Of a stretch of DNA of 64,000 nucleotides, positions 3,269 through 53,315 are shown piece by piece. The position numbers and the translations under genes are program-made. The notes below the pieces were generated by a model that was not told the DNA's origin, ran no database searches, and saw nothing but the letters and a program-made list of their open reading frames with translations. The DNA comes from a bacterium (GTDB lineage: Bacteria > Bacteroidota > Ignavibacteria > Kapaibacteriales > UBA7675). The stretch is from positions 1 through 64,000 of the forward strand of contig JAUIKM010000031.1 of assembly GCA_030430495.1 (NCBI GenBank), in the 5' to 3' direction. How positions within the stretch are numbered: position 1 is the stretch's first letter; every line of letters starts with the position of its first letter.

Positions 3269-4162
3269 ATGCACGTGGACAACCTATCAATGGACTTTAT
3301 TCGCAAGCTCGAAAATATCCAGGAACTGGCGACGCTGCCGACCGTGGCCTTCCGCATCCTGGAGCTGGTTGAAGACCCCAAAGCCACCATGGACGACATC
3401 AGCCAGGCCGTGGAAACCGACCCCTCGCTCACAGTCAAAATCCTGCGCGTCGCCAACTCGCCGCTCTACGGTTTTCGCACCGAGATTTCTTCCGTGCGCC
3501 AGGCCATCATTAGCCTGGGCCTCAACCGCATCTCCAATATCGTCGTCGGCGTGGCGCTTTTCACGAAATTTTTCAATACCTCCGCGCGGCAGAACGTGCA
3601 CATGCGCGAGTTCTGGCGCCATTCGACTTCGACCGGTATCGTGGCCAAATCGCTGGCGCGGCGGCTCAAAATCAGCTTCAACGAGCGCGAGTTCGTCGGC
3701 GGCCTGATCCACGACATCGGCAAAATGGTTATGATCCAGTACTTTCCCGAGCAGTACGATGCCGTGCTGAGCATCATTCGGGAACGACAGGTGCGCGACG
3801 TGGTCGCCGAGCGCGAGGTTTTCGGCGTCGACCACAACGTCGCGGGGCGCGCTCTGGCCAAAATGTGGCAGCTGCCGGCCGACCTGACGGACGTCATCGC
3901 CTCGCACTCAACCCTGCCCGAACTCAGCAACGCGCGCGACATTACCGCCGTGGTGCGCATCGCCGACCTGCTCTGCGAAATGTGGGGCGCCAGCTCGGAA
4001 GAGGGCATCCTGGAACTCGAACTGGAACGCGAACGCGCCTGGAACGTCCTCGCCAACATCCGCCCCGAACTGCAAGACCTGGACGTCGAAGTCTTCACCT
4101 TTGAACTCGAACAGGAATTCAAAAAAGCCGAACTCTTCATCAACCTCATGCTCGGCGACTGA
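3269..4162 (+). CDS. HDOD domain signalling protein
   Basis: 297 residues, nearly all one HDOD domain (about 10-215). This is a relative of HD phosphohydrolases that usually acts as a protein-interaction or regulatory module in signalling, motility or cell-cycle control. Family features include the LPTVAFRILELVEDP start, DPSLTVKILRVANSPLYGF, the AIISLGLNRISNIV helix and GGLIHDIGKMV. An HD pair (HDIGK) is present, but HDOD proteins generally lack a complete metal site. No receiver or GGDEF domain is attached, and no signal peptide is seen. The ATG has AGGA eight bases upstream. The gene stands alone between tmRNA and a gap, so its partner cannot be guessed. Confidence 0.9.
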   Translation: MHVDNLSMDFIRKLENIQELATLPTVAFRILELVEDPKATMDDISQAVETDPSLTVKILRVANSPLYGFRTEISSVRQAIISLGLNRISNIVVGVALFTKFFNTSARQNVHMREFWRHSTSTGIVAKSLARRLKISFNEREFVGGLIHDIGKMVMIQYFPEQYDAVLSIIRERQVRDVVAEREVFGVDHNVAGRALAKMWQLPADLTDVIASHSTLPELSNARDITAVVRIADLLCEMWGASSEEGILELELERERAWNVLANIRPELQDLDVEVFTFELEQEFKKAELFINLMLGD

Positions 4163-4780
4163 TTTCTCCACGTGATTTTCAGAGCTTCGCCGTGCGTTCC
4201 TCCGGCTTGCCTCATGAGCATCTTGTTCGTCGGCGGGGGAGAAACGTCGCGCCGCGCAGTTTTCAGCCTTTTTGTTCACAGCGCTTGTGCCGCAAGTCTC
4301 CCGCTTGTCGATGAATATGGCACGTTCAACCACGTAAAGCGCGACGTTCAGTTTTATCCATGCAGAAGTTAATGGCCGAAAGATTAATCTGTATTCGGCG
4401 CGCGCGGACCGGTCGCGGGCGCCTGATGGAGGTCACTGCTCTGTGGCATGCTGAACGAGCCCGCGCTGAAGCGGGTAAGGGAAGCTATATTGGTGGGTAT
4501 CGTTTTGGAAAGGTGGTGGTGTCGGGGTGGGTCCTTTGATCTCGCAAAAAAGTATTTAAACCAAAACTTCAAACCAGAAGTATAAAAACTTAAACAAAAA
4601 GAAACTCCACTCTTTAGTACTTCAGTCTCAGCCTTCCGGATCGAAACTCCGCGCACAACACGACAATACCCTGCGATCGCCGCATTGGCATCACTCCGGC
4701 TCAGCGACTTAACATCTCAGCAGACGACCTGAACAAACCTGAGATCGTCCCGGAAAAAGGCAACCTCTCGCAGCTCCCGT
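4163..4780. other. Intergenic gap, no gene recognised
   Basis: A 618-bp convergent gap between the HDOD gene and the S9 peptidase. I see no convincing coding or RNA gene. Part of it (around 4530-4640) is an A-rich stretch that vaguely resembles sequence in other gaps of this window, for example cgcaaaaa followed by TTAA-containing words. Confidence 0.5.
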
Positions 4781-46828: not shown

Positions 46829-49800
46829 ATGAGCGACTACAACAATGTTGAAATAGGGCACAGACTACTGCGTGATCAGGTGAGGCGCCACCTGGCATCC
46901 AGTGATGTTACCGACCCCGGCATCGCCGCACTGCTGCACGAAGTCGAGGCGACCTATCGCTATCTGGAACGCCGCAGAAAATCGCACATCTTTAAGGCAG
47001 AAGAGACGGCAAGCGCCACAGAGTCGCAGGGCATCGCCTACCGCGCGCTGATACATGACAAACGCATCTTCAATTCCTATTCCTCCGCGCTCGACATTCT
47101 GCTTGCCGGCACCAAATCATCCAGCGAATTCGACGAAGATTTTTCCATCGACGATTTTATTCATCCGGAGGACGCGCTCGACGTGCGCGTCGCCATTCGC
47201 GACGCCCTTGCCGGTCGCGGCGAGTTTGCCCTGGAGTACCGTCTGATCGGTCGCGGCGGTCTGAATATCTACGTGCGCGATGAGGCAACTGTCAGCAGCA
47301 AAGATGGCGACCTTGTCGTCAGCGGCGTCATTACCGATCTGACGGAGCAGGCGCTGGCGGCCGAAATGAAAGCCGCGTCCGAAAGTCTGCTGGCGCGACT
47401 GAAAGCGCGGGACGTCCGGCTGACGTTTCTGGCGGACGTCGACCAGTACGGTCAGGCGGTGCTGGCCAGGGGAGACCGCGGATTTGACCGCAGTTTCAAC
47501 GTCAACAGCGCCAACCAGCGGGGGCAATCGCTGGAACGACTGGGTCGTAACTCGCGTCGGCGGCCGCTCGACAGAGTGGCGGAGGAGTGCGAGACATGCA
47601 TTGAAACGCGCGCCACGGTGGAAACGACGCTCGAATTAAGCGGGCCGTCGGGCAACGAGGAAATCCGTTTGATCCTGGAGCCGCAGCTCGGCTCGCTCGG
47701 CTCCGTCGTCCGCATTTCCGGTCTGGCGGTGAACGCGGGCAACGCGGCACGACGCACGGCCACCTCATATGACGAGCTGCGCATTCTGCGAATGGCGCTG
47801 GAAGGCAGCGGCGACGGCGTGTGGGATTGGAATGTCGATACCGGACAGTTGAGTCTTTCGCAGACATGGCTGAACAATCTTGGATATGCGCCGGGCAATG
47901 CGCCCGACTCCGTGAATCAGTGGCTGCGCATGGTGCACCGCGAAGACGTCGGCGCCGTGATGCAATCGGTGCGGCTTGCCGGCGCGGGCATCAGCGACCG
48001 CATTACGATGGAATATCGCTTGCGGCGCGCCGACGACAACTACGCCTGGCTGCTGACGCGCGGGCGGGTGGTTGAGCGCCATGCCGATGGCTTGCCGCGT
48101 CGGATCATCGGAATTCACGCGATCATCACGCGGCAGCGCGAGGCGGAAGAACGCGTGCGCAAGGCCGAGGCGAAAGGCCGCGCCATTATAGCCGCACTGC
48201 CGGATCTGATTTTCCATCTGGACGGCGAGGGCGTGGTGATCGATTTCCACGCGTCGCTCGAACCGCCGGCTTTGTTGCAGCCGACGAGTTATTTCGGAGC
48301 AAAACTCAGCAGCATCATGCCGGCTGAGAGCGCGGCAGAGTTTGAACAAAAACTTGCCCTGGCGAGCGAGACCAACGAACTTCAGGTAATGGAGTTTTGT
48401 CTGGACGGCAAGGGCGACGGCAAGCTGATATTTGAGGCGCGCGTGCGCCTGACCACGCTGCACGAGTTTCTTGTCATCGTGCGCGATATTACGGAATCGC
48501 GGCGGGTTCAGGAGAATCTGGAGCGCAGCCAGTCGCAGTTGCTTGAAGCGCATCGACTGGCGCGAATCGGCTCGTGGACTTTCGATGCCGGCAGGGTCGG
48601 GATCGTCTGGTCGGAAACGCTGTTCGAAATTTTCGGAGTTGCTTCCGACTCCGGTCCGATGACCTCGGAGCGCTACAACCAGCTCATTCACCCGGAAGAC
48701 CGCGATTGGCTGCGGGAAACGCTCTCGATGGCGGCGGCGACGGGATCGGCGTATGAGGTGGAGCACCGCATCATTCGTCCCGATGGAATGATTCGCACGA
48801 TTGAAGCGCGCGGCAAAGCTGTGCTCAATGCGGAGAATCAGATCGTGCGCATGCAAGGCACGGCGCAGGACATCACCGAGCAGAAAATGGCGGAGCAGGA
48901 ATTGCGCCAGGCAAAAGAAGAAGCCGAGCGCGCCAGCCGCGTCAAATCCGAGTTTTTCGCCACGATGAGCCACGAAATCCGCACGCCAATGAACGGCGTC
49001 GTCGGATCGGCCGAGCTGCTGGCGCAAACGCGGCTGAGCCCGGAACAGCGCGAGTACGTCTCCACGGTCCAGGCCAGCAGCCGGTCCCTGCAAGCTCTGA
49101 TTGAAGATATTCTGGATTTTTCCAAGATAGAATCCGGCAAACTCGTGCTGGAACAGGCCGAGGTGGACCTTGTCCTGTTGATTGACGATGCGCTCAACGT
49201 GCTGGCGCCGGCCGCTTTTGAAAAAGAGCTGGAGCTGGTGTTTACCCACGGTGACAAGTTTCCCGACGTGGTCATCGGCGATCCGACGCGTCTGCGTCAG
49301 CTGATGATGAACCTGCTGTCGAACGCCGTCAAGTTCACGCTGGAAGGGCATGTTCACATTCATCTGAACTGTGAGCCTTGCGGCGAAGACAAGCTGCGTT
49401 TAACATGTGAGGTTTACGATACGGGCATCGGCATTCCGGAAGCCGACCGCGGCGGTTTGTTTAAAGCCTTTCAACAGGTTGATTCCTCGATGACGCGGCG
49501 TTTCGGCGGTGCGGGTCTGGGGCTTGCCATCTGCAATCGCCTGGTGCAATTGATGAAAGGCGAAATCGGCATGCGCCCCAATGACGACGGCGGCTCCGTT
49601 TTCTGGTTTGTCGTTGAGCTGAAAGCGGCTATGGGCGCGGCTGCGCAGCAAGCACTGCCGCCGCTGAAAAAGGCGAATGCCGTCCTGATGGACTGTCATC
49701 AGTTCAGTCGTAAAACCACCAGCGAAGTTTTAAAGCAAATGGGAATCAGTGTGCGCGCTTTTGATTCGGCTGCGCAGTTAAACACCATTCTCAAAAGCGG

Positions 49801-50455
49801 CGCCCCGCTGGACCTGTTGATCTTCAGTTGCGCCTTTGAGCGCAGCAATCTCCTGATGGTTCTGCGCAAAATGCGCAGCGACAAAAGACGATTTAAGATC
49901 CTGCTCCTGATTTACGGGCACACGCTCAAGACATTCGGCCGCGAGGATCAGGATCTCTACGATGCAATCATTATCAAGCCGCTGCGCCTGCGGCGGCTGC
50001 AGGAAGAAGTGCATCGTCTGCTGATAGATGAAAAAAGCGTGAAAACGCCGCCGGTTGCAGCGCAGGGGTCGCTGGACCGGAACCTGAGGGTTCTCGTGGT
50101 CGACGACAGCGCCGTCAACCGCAAGATTATCATGGCGATGTTGCAGAAGCTCGGTCTGAAACCCGCGGCAGTGTGCAGTGGGTTTGAGGCGCTTGATCAC
50201 CTGGGCGAACACTCCGTCGACATTGTCTTTATGGATGTTCAGATGCCCGGGATGGACGGCATGGAGACGACCAGAAAAATTCTGGAGCAGATTGAGGATC
50301 AATCCGAAGCGCCGCGCATTATCGCAATGACGGCCAACACCTCCGAGGAAGATCGACAGCACTGCTTTGAGGTCGGAATGGTCGATTTTATCTCAAAACC
50401 GGTACGCCCGCCGGCTATCCGAAATGCGCTGCAAAGCTGGGGGCACAGCTCCTGA
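46829..50455 (+). CDS. Multi-PAS hybrid sensor histidine kinase
   Basis: 1208 residues with no membrane segment, so cytoplasmic. The N-terminal ~700 residues hold about four PAS-like domains, several with PAC-type ends ([35 protein letters not shown]). HisKA has His715 in [15 protein letters not shown]. The ATPase domain has [10 protein letters not shown] and [10 protein letters not shown] degenerate receiver (about 945-1070) has Ser in place of the phospho-Asp (LLIFSCAF). The final receiver is intact, with Asp1136 in VFMDVQMPG. Autophosphorylation then intramolecular transfer to Asp1136 is expected. No separate regulator gene is near. The ECF sigma gene follows 160 bp later. Confidence 0.94.
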
Positions 50456-50503: not shown

Positions 50504-50615
50504 GAGCGCAACATGCGCGATGTGACAAACCGGGGAGCTGCCGGTCTCTGTCACAAGTCGCAGGCGTGTATGGCGTCCGGCGGCAATCAAAATACGGGGT
50601 GAGCGGCGACGGCGA

Positions 50616-51179
50616 ATGAAGAAAGACTTCAAAATACTGACGGACAACGAGCTCTTCATCGAACTTGGCGGCGAACGCGCCACGGCCCTGGTGGCCTTTG
50701 AAGAGCTGTATTCGCGCCACTCCCGTCGAATTTTCACCTATATCCTGCGCATCCTCGGCGATGAATTCCAGGCCGAAGACGTCTACCAGGAAACATTTGC
50801 CCGTCTGTATTCCAGCGCCCGCGAAAAGCGCACCGTCCACAACGTCACATCCTACCTGTTCCGCATTGCGCGCAATCTGTGCCTGAATGAAAAGCGAAAA
50901 AAAGATAATCAGAACGTCACGTTCGAAGAGTTTCGCTTTGCCGTTCGCGACGAGAACTACGAGTCGACGGAGCTGCTGCGCCTGGTGAACATGGCCCTGG
51001 AGATGTTGCAGGAGGAATACCGCGAGGCTTTTGTGCTGCGCGAACACGTCGGCCTGTCGTACAATGAAATTGCCGAGGTCGTCGGAACGACGATGCCGGT
51101 TATCCGCACGCGCATTTACCGCGCCAAACAGAAAATCAGAGCGATCCTTGCGCCATATGTCGAGGATCTCCAAAAATGA
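50616..51179 (+). CDS. ECF-type RNA polymerase sigma factor
   Basis: 187 residues. Region 2 is FEELYSRHSRRIFTYI with EDVYQETFARLY, and region 4 is REAFVLREHVGLSYNEIAEVVG with VIRTRIYRAKQKIR. There is no region 1 or 3, as in ECF sigma factors. It would direct RNA polymerase to a small stress or envelope regulon. The next gene, 32 bp downstream on the same strand, begins with an anti-sigma-like domain, the standard arrangement. The ATG lies in a GC-rich leader with gagcggcgacggcga ahead of it and no strong Shine-Dalgarno. Confidence 0.95.
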   Translation: MKKDFKILTDNELFIELGGERATALVAFEELYSRHSRRIFTYILRILGDEFQAEDVYQETFARLYSSAREKRTVHNVTSYLFRIARNLCLNEKRKKDNQNVTFEEFRFAVRDENYESTELLRLVNMALEMLQEEYREAFVLREHVGLSYNEIAEVVGTTMPVIRTRIYRAKQKIRAILAPYVEDLQK

Positions 51180-51211
51180 GTTCAAAAGAACAATGACATA
51201 CATTGAATATC

Positions 51212-52525
51212 ATGGATAACTTCAATTCATACTCCAGTTCCGAGCAATTGACGGCGCTCCTCGACGGTGAACTGAACGGGGCCGACGCCGGCACGCTGTT
51301 TCTGGAGATGGCCAACAACCCGGAGTTGCAGACCGAGCTGATTCATCAGGTTAGTCTGCGCAATTCGATCCAGAACGGATTGGTGGAACCGCCGGCGTAT
51401 CTGAAAGCCGGTATTATCGAGTCGATCGGTTTGGCCGAGACTGCGGGCGTCGCAAGCGCTTCGGTCGGTCTGATGGCGGGAATCAAACAACTGGCGGCTT
51501 CCAAAGCCGCAGCCATGCTGGGTTCGGCTCTGCTGGCCACGCTGCTGACCTCCGCGCTGTTTATGATCAATTCGGATATGGACAATGGCGGCCTGGCTAT
51601 GGGCACGAAGGTTGAAGAACAGGCCGTCGGTCAGGAAATTGCACTCGCAGCGCATGCCGCCGGCGAATCGCTCGACCTGGCTTCCGCGCTGGCACTGGAC
51701 GATATCCTGAAAATCAGCAAAGCTTATGCGGGCGACCGCAACAGCAACGCTTCGGCCGGTCGGAATTACGACGGGGGCAGCTTTGCCGCAAACGCAGGCG
51801 GCGGAGCGGGAGCTTTCGCAGGTCAGGAACGCGCGCACAGCCACACACATCCGCTCGACAGCGACCCGCTGCACGGCACGGCTTCGATCAGCGATCTGAT
51901 CGTTCGCGCGCTGGCCAAGCAACCCAGGGAACCGGCGGCTTTCCGCTCGATCGTGGTCGGCGACGTCAGCTACAGCAGCAACGTCACGGGCATGGGGCAG
52001 AACGCCAAGAACATCCTGAGTTTCTTTGAGCCGACGGACACGGGCCTCGAAGTGCAGCTGCGCGGATTCTCCGGTCACTACTTCACTGAAATTGACGTCC
52101 CGGCCAAGAGCGACCCCGTGCTCAACAACCTGAGCATGGCCGTGCTCGCGCCGATCGATGAACACTGGTCCGTGGGCCTGGAGGCGGGTCAGGAGACCTT
52201 CAATCAGAGCTACACGGAAAACAGCGAACTTGAGATTCTGCTGCACGAGCAGAAATACATCGGCGGATGGATCGCGGCAGCCCTGCAATACCGCACGGCG
52301 CCGGTAGAGTCGCTCAAGGACCTGCGATTCTTTGTGCGCGCCGCCGGCGGCGGAACCGAGCAGGGACCGATCGGTCGCATGCTGCTGGGTACGGAATACG
52401 CTCTGGGCGATCGCGTCTCAATGATTGGCGGCGTTGAAGGTTCGACGATGATGTACCGTTTCCAAAACGAAAGTCACTTCTCCAGTAAACTGGCTCTGAC
52501 CTATGGTCTGGCGTTTAAACTCTGA
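51212..52525 (+). CDS. Anti-sigma-like protein with a C-terminal outer-membrane beta-barrel-like domain
   Basis: 437 residues from ATG 51212. The first ~60 residues (SSEQLTALLDGEL, MANNPELQTELIHQVSL) look like the cytoplasmic part of an FCB-type anti-sigma factor without the zinc motif. A membrane helix follows (about 100-119, LGSALLATLLTSALFMI). A Gly/Ala/Ser-rich linker (about 125-275) leads to ~160 residues of alternating beta strands (SMAVLAPIDEHWSVGLEAG; MLLGTEYALGDRVSMIGGVEG) ending in LALTYGLAFKL, like the last strand of a small porin-like barrel. It follows the ECF sigma gene. A trans-envelope sensor is my inference; the barrel call is by pattern only. Confidence 0.7.
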   Translation: MDNFNSYSSSEQLTALLDGELNGADAGTLFLEMANNPELQTELIHQVSLRNSIQNGLVEPPAYLKAGIIESIGLAETAGVASASVGLMAGIKQLAASKAAAMLGSALLATLLTSALFMINSDMDNGGLAMGTKVEEQAVGQEIALAAHAAGESLDLASALALDDILKISKAYAGDRNSNASAGRNYDGGSFAANAGGGAGAFAGQERAHSHTHPLDSDPLHGTASISDLIVRALAKQPREPAAFRSIVVGDVSYSSNVTGMGQNAKNILSFFEPTDTGLEVQLRGFSGHYFTEIDVPAKSDPVLNNLSMAVLAPIDEHWSVGLEAGQETFNQSYTENSELEILLHEQKYIGGWIAAALQYRTAPVESLKDLRFFVRAAGGGTEQGPIGRMLLGTEYALGDRVSMIGGVEGSTMMYRFQNESHFSSKLALTYGLAFKL

Positions 52526-52574
52526 CAACAGCGACGCCGGCGTTGACACAAATGTTAAACGGCCGGCGTCTTTG

Positions 52575-53315
52575 ATGTGGTTCTTTCTGCCGCTGCTTTT
52601 GCTCTTTGCGGCGGCGACCTCCTGCGAATCACCGATGGATGTTGACGCGAATCGCACGACGCGTTCGCTTGACGACCAGAACGACAACACCGACCAGATT
52701 GAATTTGACCGATCCGTTTTATCGTTCGACTTCACGGAGCGCCATTCCAAGCGGCGTTCTTCCCTGACGATGCGCAACACGGGAATCGAACCGGTGATGA
52801 TTCACACACTGGAAATCGACTCCAACGTGTTTAAGATCGACCTCACGACTCTGCCCGAATTTCCTTTTGAACTTGCGCCCAAAGGGCACCCGGCTTCGAT
52901 CAAGACATTTGATGTACTGTTCAGTCCGATCGAATTCGGCGACTACCTCGGCAACCTGCGCGTTAACAAAAAAGAGGCCGTCAAAGTCGTGGTCAACGGC
53001 ATTTCCCCGCAGGTATCCATTAAGGACCTGACCTTCGGGACGGTCGACGGCATTGAAGTTCAAAGCTCTTTTATCCAGAATCACGGCGAAACCGACATCG
53101 TGATTTCTGACGCAATCGTCGCTTTTCCGATCGGCATTTTCACTCCCTCCGGTTTGCCGGAATTTCCGCTGCGCCTCAAGGGCGGACTCTCGGCGTCTTT
53201 TCAGGTCAGATTTGAACCGCAATCCGCCAATCTTGTCAAGGGCCGCATCGAATTTTTGATTGACGGCGCCGACTACGTCGACAATGTCTGTGAACTCAAC
53301 GGCCGCGGCCGCTGA
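52575..53315 (+). CDS. Lipoprotein with ASH-like (Ig-like) domains
   Basis: 246 residues from the ATG at 52575. An alternative ATG at 52503 overlaps the preceding gene and would give 270 residues with a long N-region. The signal peptide WFFLPLLLLFAAATSC has a lipobox with Cys17. The mature part has a short acidic linker, then two beta-sandwich units of the ASPM/SPD-2/Hydin kind seen in choice-of-anchor proteins: SLTMRNTGIEPVMI with FDVLFSPIEFGDYLGNLRV, and SSFIQNHGETDIVI with FQVRFEPQSANLVKGRIEF. It is probably the third gene of the sigma/anti-sigma unit and might be a periplasmic or surface partner. Confidence 0.75.
   Translation: MWFFLPLLLLFAAATSCESPMDVDANRTTRSLDDQNDNTDQIEFDRSVLSFDFTERHSKRRSSLTMRNTGIEPVMIHTLEIDSNVFKIDLTTLPEFPFELAPKGHPASIKTFDVLFSPIEFGDYLGNLRVNKKEAVKVVVNGISPQVSIKDLTFGTVDGIEVQSSFIQNHGETDIVISDAIVAFPIGIFTPSGLPEFPLRLKGGLSASFQVRFEPQSANLVKGRIEFLIDGADYVDNVCELNGRGR

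Follow-up and report, generated by a model that had tools for sequence, protein, structure and literature searches.

The window analysed here is a 64,000-nucleotide stretch of bacterial DNA from a source genome of 5.6 Mb in 80 contigs. Three consecutive genes on its forward strand form the cassette under study. The first, at 50616–51179 (ATG to stop), encodes an ECF sigma factor of 187 amino acids with the Pfam domains Sigma70_r2 (1.9e-16) and Sigma70_r4_2 (4.2e-12). Its stop codon is separated from the start of the second gene (51212–52525) by 32 bp in the ORF list, as an earlier preliminary description of this DNA had it. The second gene encodes a 437-residue protein which, on the basis of the ORF, an AlphaFold2 model and alignments of 20 and 89 relatives, we predict to be an envelope-spanning anti-sigma factor. 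The third, at 52575–53315 (ATG to stop), encodes a lipoprotein of 246 amino acids, and a putative ECF promoter lies ahead of all three at 50522–50546. Upstream of the cassette, on the same strand, the window carries a gene for a hybrid histidine kinase (46829–50455), with PAS, HisKA, HATPase and two receiver domains in Pfam; upstream of the ECF gene of the related locus L009, the sequence also resembles the end of a histidine kinase. The long flanking ORFs of the opposite strand are MFS-, TolC- and RND-like, by reading only.

Taken alone, the 437-residue protein has no match in Pfam, NCBIfam or PHROGs. Its AlphaFold2 model, built with 44 homologues, begins with a helical N-domain (residues 1–75, 51212–51436), whose helices fall between residues 9 and 71 and whose block pLDDT is 89–94 over residues 11–50. 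A membrane helix follows at residues 98–121 (51503–51574), close to the 100–119 given in the preliminary description and supported by hydropathy across the 89 relatives. Residues from about 130 to 275 are modelled at low confidence (pLDDT mostly 42–52), in keeping with the long flexible linker that had been proposed; from this and from composition, rich in Ala, Gly, Ser and Asp, we predict a mostly disordered periplasmic tether of 155 residues (122–276, 51575–52039). The remainder of the chain (residues 277–437, 52040–52522) contains eight high-confidence strands within 280–436, with block pLDDT of 87–98, and ends in LALTYGLAFKL, the terminal strand of the roughly 160-residue barrel already suspected from the residue pattern.

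Soluble periplasmic domains are common among membrane anti-sigma factors, and a soluble beta structure at the C-terminus would make this protein an ordinary inner-membrane anti-sigma factor. Soluble barrels, namely avidin and PsbO, do occur in the list of structure matches, at Z 9–11, but they rank below outer-membrane barrels, which are the best matches at Z 14–16 (NspA 15.1, OprF 15.1, OmpA 14.7, PagL 14.6). The model is a closed barrel and not the soluble sandwich against which the preliminary description had set its own reading, and the last residue is F, L or Y in 85 of 89 relatives, as in outer-membrane barrels. The C-terminal domain is thus confidently predicted to be a closed 8-stranded outer-membrane barrel of the OmpA/NspA/OprF fold; a soluble periplasmic domain is disfavoured by the model, and we regard it as highly improbable.

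The anti-sigma character ascribed to the N-terminus is borne out by two kinds of comparison. When searched against 177,635 distinct PDB sequences, the N-terminal profile returns three matches, RseA (0.005), RsiW (0.0055) and DdvA (0.18), all of them anti-sigma factors. When the N-domain is folded alone, Foldseek rows 1–16 are likewise all anti-sigma factors (MucA, RseA, RsiW, DdvA, RslA), although these matches are weak, with E-values of 0.3 and above and Z of 7 at most. Among 44 family members, RseA_N is found in 6 and an NCBI anti-sigma model in 8; neither Pfam nor NCBIfam matches the N-domain of the window protein taken by itself. We therefore class it as an RseA/RsiW-type class I anti-sigma domain, on profile matches and on structural matches with weak E-values. 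Like class I factors of this type, the protein has a helical cytoplasmic domain, a single transmembrane helix and a gene beside that of its cognate ECF factor. Unlike them, it continues not into a soluble periplasmic domain but into a tether and an outer-membrane barrel. Class I anti-sigma domains have been surveyed: they occur next to just 6% of Bacteroidetes ECFs, and barrels are not mentioned in the main text of that study (PMC7406223).

The same layout is shared by 89 non-identical relatives, and this is more than chance, bearing in mind that the aligned relatives were selected for being full-length. A TM-like segment is present in 89 of 89, with a median start at residue 99, and the mean net charge is +1.5 ahead of it and −0.9 after it, which indicates that the N-terminus is inside. 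The tether has a median length of 143 residues and falls within 111–173 residues in 90% of the relatives. Judged from the length of an extended chain, the roughly 155 residues in the window protein should be long enough to cross the periplasm. Computation thus supports an architecture in which anti-sigma domain, TM helix, tether and outer-membrane barrel are predicted to be joined in one polypeptide. The structural part of the earlier proposal, that a single protein spans the envelope, stands in this form; the other part, that it reports outer-membrane state to the sigma factor, we infer.

The family is widespread within the order. Its profile matches 99 of 99 sampled genomes; every one of the 41 genera is represented, and a single genome can hold as many as 17 matches, with divergent barrels. 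A single-protein search of the genome of a relative from the same family (G001) gives 25 matches, some of which are parts of one gene. Across a phylum-wide sample of 296 genomes, the matches listed outside the order cover the N-domain only, with a few exceptions from the same class. The named matches include Kapaibacterium, Ignavibacteria and Bacteroidetes/Chlorobi MAGs, and NCBI now files Kapaibacterium in Bacteroidota. The window thus comes from the Kapabacteria, a little-studied group, or from a close relative of it. Two cassettes (L069, L077) lie on contigs labelled Ectothiorhodospiraceae and Desulfobulbaceae; these are probably misnamed bins, and otherwise horizontal transfer. Three loci from other families of the same class (L158, L159, L160) have an ECF gene followed by a protein that matches the family profile partly or mostly. 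These proteins may stand between plain anti-sigma factors and the barrel fusion as intermediate forms.

Linkage to the sigma gene is equally consistent. In related loci, which were collected through the ECF sigma alignment, each of the 45 ECF relatives with at least 36% identity has an anti-sigma/barrel gene directly downstream, so that homologues with the same domain order do recur beside ECF genes; more distant ECFs have no full-length anti-sigma/barrel protein. Pairwise distances of the ECF factor correlate with those of the N-domain (r = 0.72) and of the barrel (r = 0.65), and the bootstrap interval of the difference (N-domain minus barrel) is 0.015–0.151. The ECF factor hence tracks the N-domain better than the barrel, as expected if the N-domain is the part that binds sigma.

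Upstream of related ECF genes, a two-box consensus, GTAAC-N16-TGTTA, recurs. The dyad GTAAC-N17-GTTA is present in 20 of 86 upstream sequences and in none of the shuffled sequences. The window and its closest relative, L009, share the variant GTGAC-N16-GGTC with an equal spacer; in the window the −35 box GTGAC occupies 50522–50526 and the −10 box GGTC occupies 50543–50546, with 16 bases between them. Within its own genome, this variant has one exact match, that of its own operon, with no excess over the control, and the four matches with two mismatches are not above the reversed-pattern control; for this reason, no regulon can be called. At six loci (L074, L073, L087, L091, L044, L038), a −10-like box precedes the sigma domain by only about 4–15 bases, and their transcripts may therefore be leaderless or nearly so.

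The third gene matches its earlier description as a downstream lipoprotein with ASH-like domains. The window protein has the lipobox AATSC and weak matches to Cep192_D4/ASH, HYDIN and choice_anch_D (choice-of-anchor D), and L009 carries a homologue at the same position. By a permissive count that takes in a few false calls, a lipoprotein-like ORF follows the anti-sigma/barrel gene in 71 of 90 loci. The bodies of these lipoproteins vary: they are ASH-like in the window and L009, VWA in L066 and TIG in L060, and many have no detectable similarity past residue 60. What they share is a short peptide after the cysteine, C-x-S-P-L-D-[VI]-D-[TA]-[PN]-R (CxSPLDxDxPR in short form), represented in the window by CESPMDVDANR at 52623–52655. 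Among the 71, the serine is conserved in 32, the proline in 36, the aspartate in 34 and the arginine in 34. At three loci (L085, 5916–8564; L232, 4100–5422; L067, near 6573), one anti-sigma/barrel gene is followed by a row of two or three lipoproteins, most of which carry the post-cysteine motif.

A profile of the motif, run over seven whole genomes, gives 11 matches with E under 0.01. All 11 lie downstream of an anti-sigma/barrel gene or a barrel on the same strand: in ten cases no other gene intervenes, and the eleventh match is the second member of a tandem lipoprotein pair. Because third genes served to train the profile, this result speaks to specificity and not to sensitivity; a flank-based control was contaminated by genes from the same cassettes and was set aside. 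We also considered whether the motif is a general lipoprotein sorting signal, and rejected this: the profile, trained as it was on third genes, has no confident matches elsewhere in the seven genomes.

One of the pairs is informative in another way. On contig C25 of the window's own genome (L230, 4652–6442), a barrel of the same family has a signal-peptide-like start and lacks the anti-sigma domain. A motif-bearing lipoprotein comes next, and no sigma or anti-sigma gene was found within the 9 kb examined. The existence of this stand-alone pair points to a functional partnership of barrel and lipoprotein. It also indicates that the barrel can have a role of its own, as would be the case if the fusion protein were cleaved once exported, leaving an ordinary anti-sigma factor in the inner membrane and an independent barrel in the outer membrane, with no leash between them. 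We think cleavage of this kind quite unlikely, given that the fusion is kept full-length in 89 of 89 aligned relatives (which were selected as such) and in top matches from many genera of the order, and that the tether keeps to 111–173 residues in 90% of relatives.

An outer-membrane barrel, an inner-membrane anti-sigma factor and an ECF sigma factor form the same chain in FecA–FecR–FecI. In that system the receptor and FecR are separate, whereas here a single polypeptide carries an 8-stranded barrel. No TonB-dependent receptor or separate FecR was found beside the window sigma gene, in the cassette or the long flanking ORFs. A closer parallel is provided by the Dma proteins of B. thetaiotaomicron, which consist of an N-terminal anti-sigma region, one TM helix, a long disordered tether and a C-terminal barrel (PMC13088901). 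Dma1 and Dma2, but not Dma3, are encoded beside ECF21 sigma genes, and the dma2 gene is part of a three-gene operon (PMC13088901). Loss of Dma raises the output of outer-membrane vesicles through the sigma factor, and a dma2 deletion takes effect by way of its sigma factor, das2 (PMC13088901). The preliminary description had stated that no system of this form was known; since Dma has this domain order beside ECF genes and has already been described (PMC13088901), that statement is not right.

The Kapabacterial protein has its domain order in common with Dma, and its gene is likewise adjacent to an ECF gene, 32 bp downstream in the window and directly downstream in 45 of 45 related loci. The Dma family is described as confined to Bacteroidota (PMC13088901), and the near relatives of the window protein, Kapaibacterium MAGs, also belong there. 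The parts themselves differ. We compared the family with ten Dma-like proteins of Bacteroidia, identified by a match to PF13568 and a neighbouring ECF gene; hhalign gives probabilities of 2.4% for the full profile, 0.2% for the N-domain and 6.2% for the barrel, so that the profile comparison detects no homology in either domain. The TM segment lies near residue 55 in the Dma-like proteins and near residue 99 in the Kapabacterial family. The Dma-like N-termini do not match RseA or RsiW, in contrast to the RseA/RsiW-type domain seen here. PF13568, which the Dma-like proteins do match, was tried as the barrel family and has no match in the window protein or the other members scanned. The Kapabacterial third gene is, in addition, a lipoprotein with a cassette-specific motif. 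In a tree of sigma factors, the Das-like sigmas of Bacteroidia form their own group (SH-aLRT 100), but a joint group with the Kapabacterial sigmas is not rejected (p-AU 0.333). The Kapabacterial protein is a counterpart of Dma; with no homology detectable to the ten Dma-like proteins, it appears to be a variant built from different parts and possibly assembled independently, by convergence. At one Proteiniphilum locus (L200), a NigD-like lipoprotein gene (3429–4187; NigD_C 7.7e-41) lies upstream of the ECF and Dma-like genes, which recalls the dma1–nigD1 link in Bacteroides.

We consider it likely that the three products of the operon are an ECF sigma factor, its cognate anti-sigma leash spanning both membranes, and a lipoprotein, and that a change at the outer membrane frees the sigma factor to drive its own operon. 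The anti-sigma N-terminus would hold the sigma factor at the inner membrane, the TM helix would anchor the protein, the disordered tether of about 155 residues would cross the periplasm, and the 8-stranded barrel would sit in the outer membrane. The input may lie in the barrel, through its occupancy or its assembly, or in the state of the lipoprotein; the lipoprotein, which may use its post-cysteine peptide to dock on the barrel, is a probable source of input. The signal would then pass along the tether, probably through proteolysis on the periplasmic side, and the freed sigma factor would transcribe its own operon from the GTGAC-N16-GGTC promoter. This model is favoured because of the predicted fold and domain order, the exclusively anti-sigma matches of the N-domain, the ECF linkage in 45 of 45 loci, the correlation of ECF and N-domain distances, the two-box promoter and the cassette-specific motif, and because the analogous Dma2–Das2 pair acts sigma-dependently (PMC13088901). 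Computation supports the architecture, the fold, the gene linkage, the conserved promoter element and the lipoprotein motif.

The main rival to this model is that the barrel binds no ligand and reports only whether BAM can fold it. Upon failed assembly, the barrel would stay in the periplasm, the protein would be degraded and sigma would be freed; this would resemble the RseA response, except that the reporter substrate and the anti-sigma factor would be fused in one chain. The N-domain is indeed of RseA type, RseA responds to unfolded outer-membrane proteins (PMC8103513), and no ligand site was identified. However, up to 17 profile matches per genome, with divergent barrels, suggest different inputs, as does the conserved cassette-specific lipoprotein motif, rather than one general assembly state; moreover, a barrel–lipoprotein pair exists without sigma or anti-sigma. 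For these reasons we hold a pure assembly sensor to be unlikely. A bolder version of the leash model can be entertained tentatively, though we think it somewhat doubtful: a modular surface sensor, in which lipoproteins of exchangeable body use a fixed post-cysteine peptide to dock into or onto the barrel, their state setting sigma release. Such a sensor would have arisen independently of Dma and would be a main envelope-sensing device of the whole order.

The sigma-leash architecture itself is already known from the Dma proteins of Bacteroides. What is new is the presence of the family in 99 of 99 sampled genomes of the order, often in multiple copies; the anti-sigma/barrel neighbour of 45 of 45 sigma relatives at 36% identity or more; the recurrent two-box ECF-type promoter, with its variant at the window operon; and the third-gene lipoprotein, with its varied body and fixed post-cysteine peptide. 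A sigma factor tied directly to the outer membrane is thus not peculiar to Bacteroides, and is universal in the 99 sampled Kapabacteria genomes. The Kapabacterial version apparently uses a different anti-sigma domain and a different barrel, a possible case of convergence, and the cassette-specific lipoprotein peptide is a concrete candidate for the sensor input of such systems.
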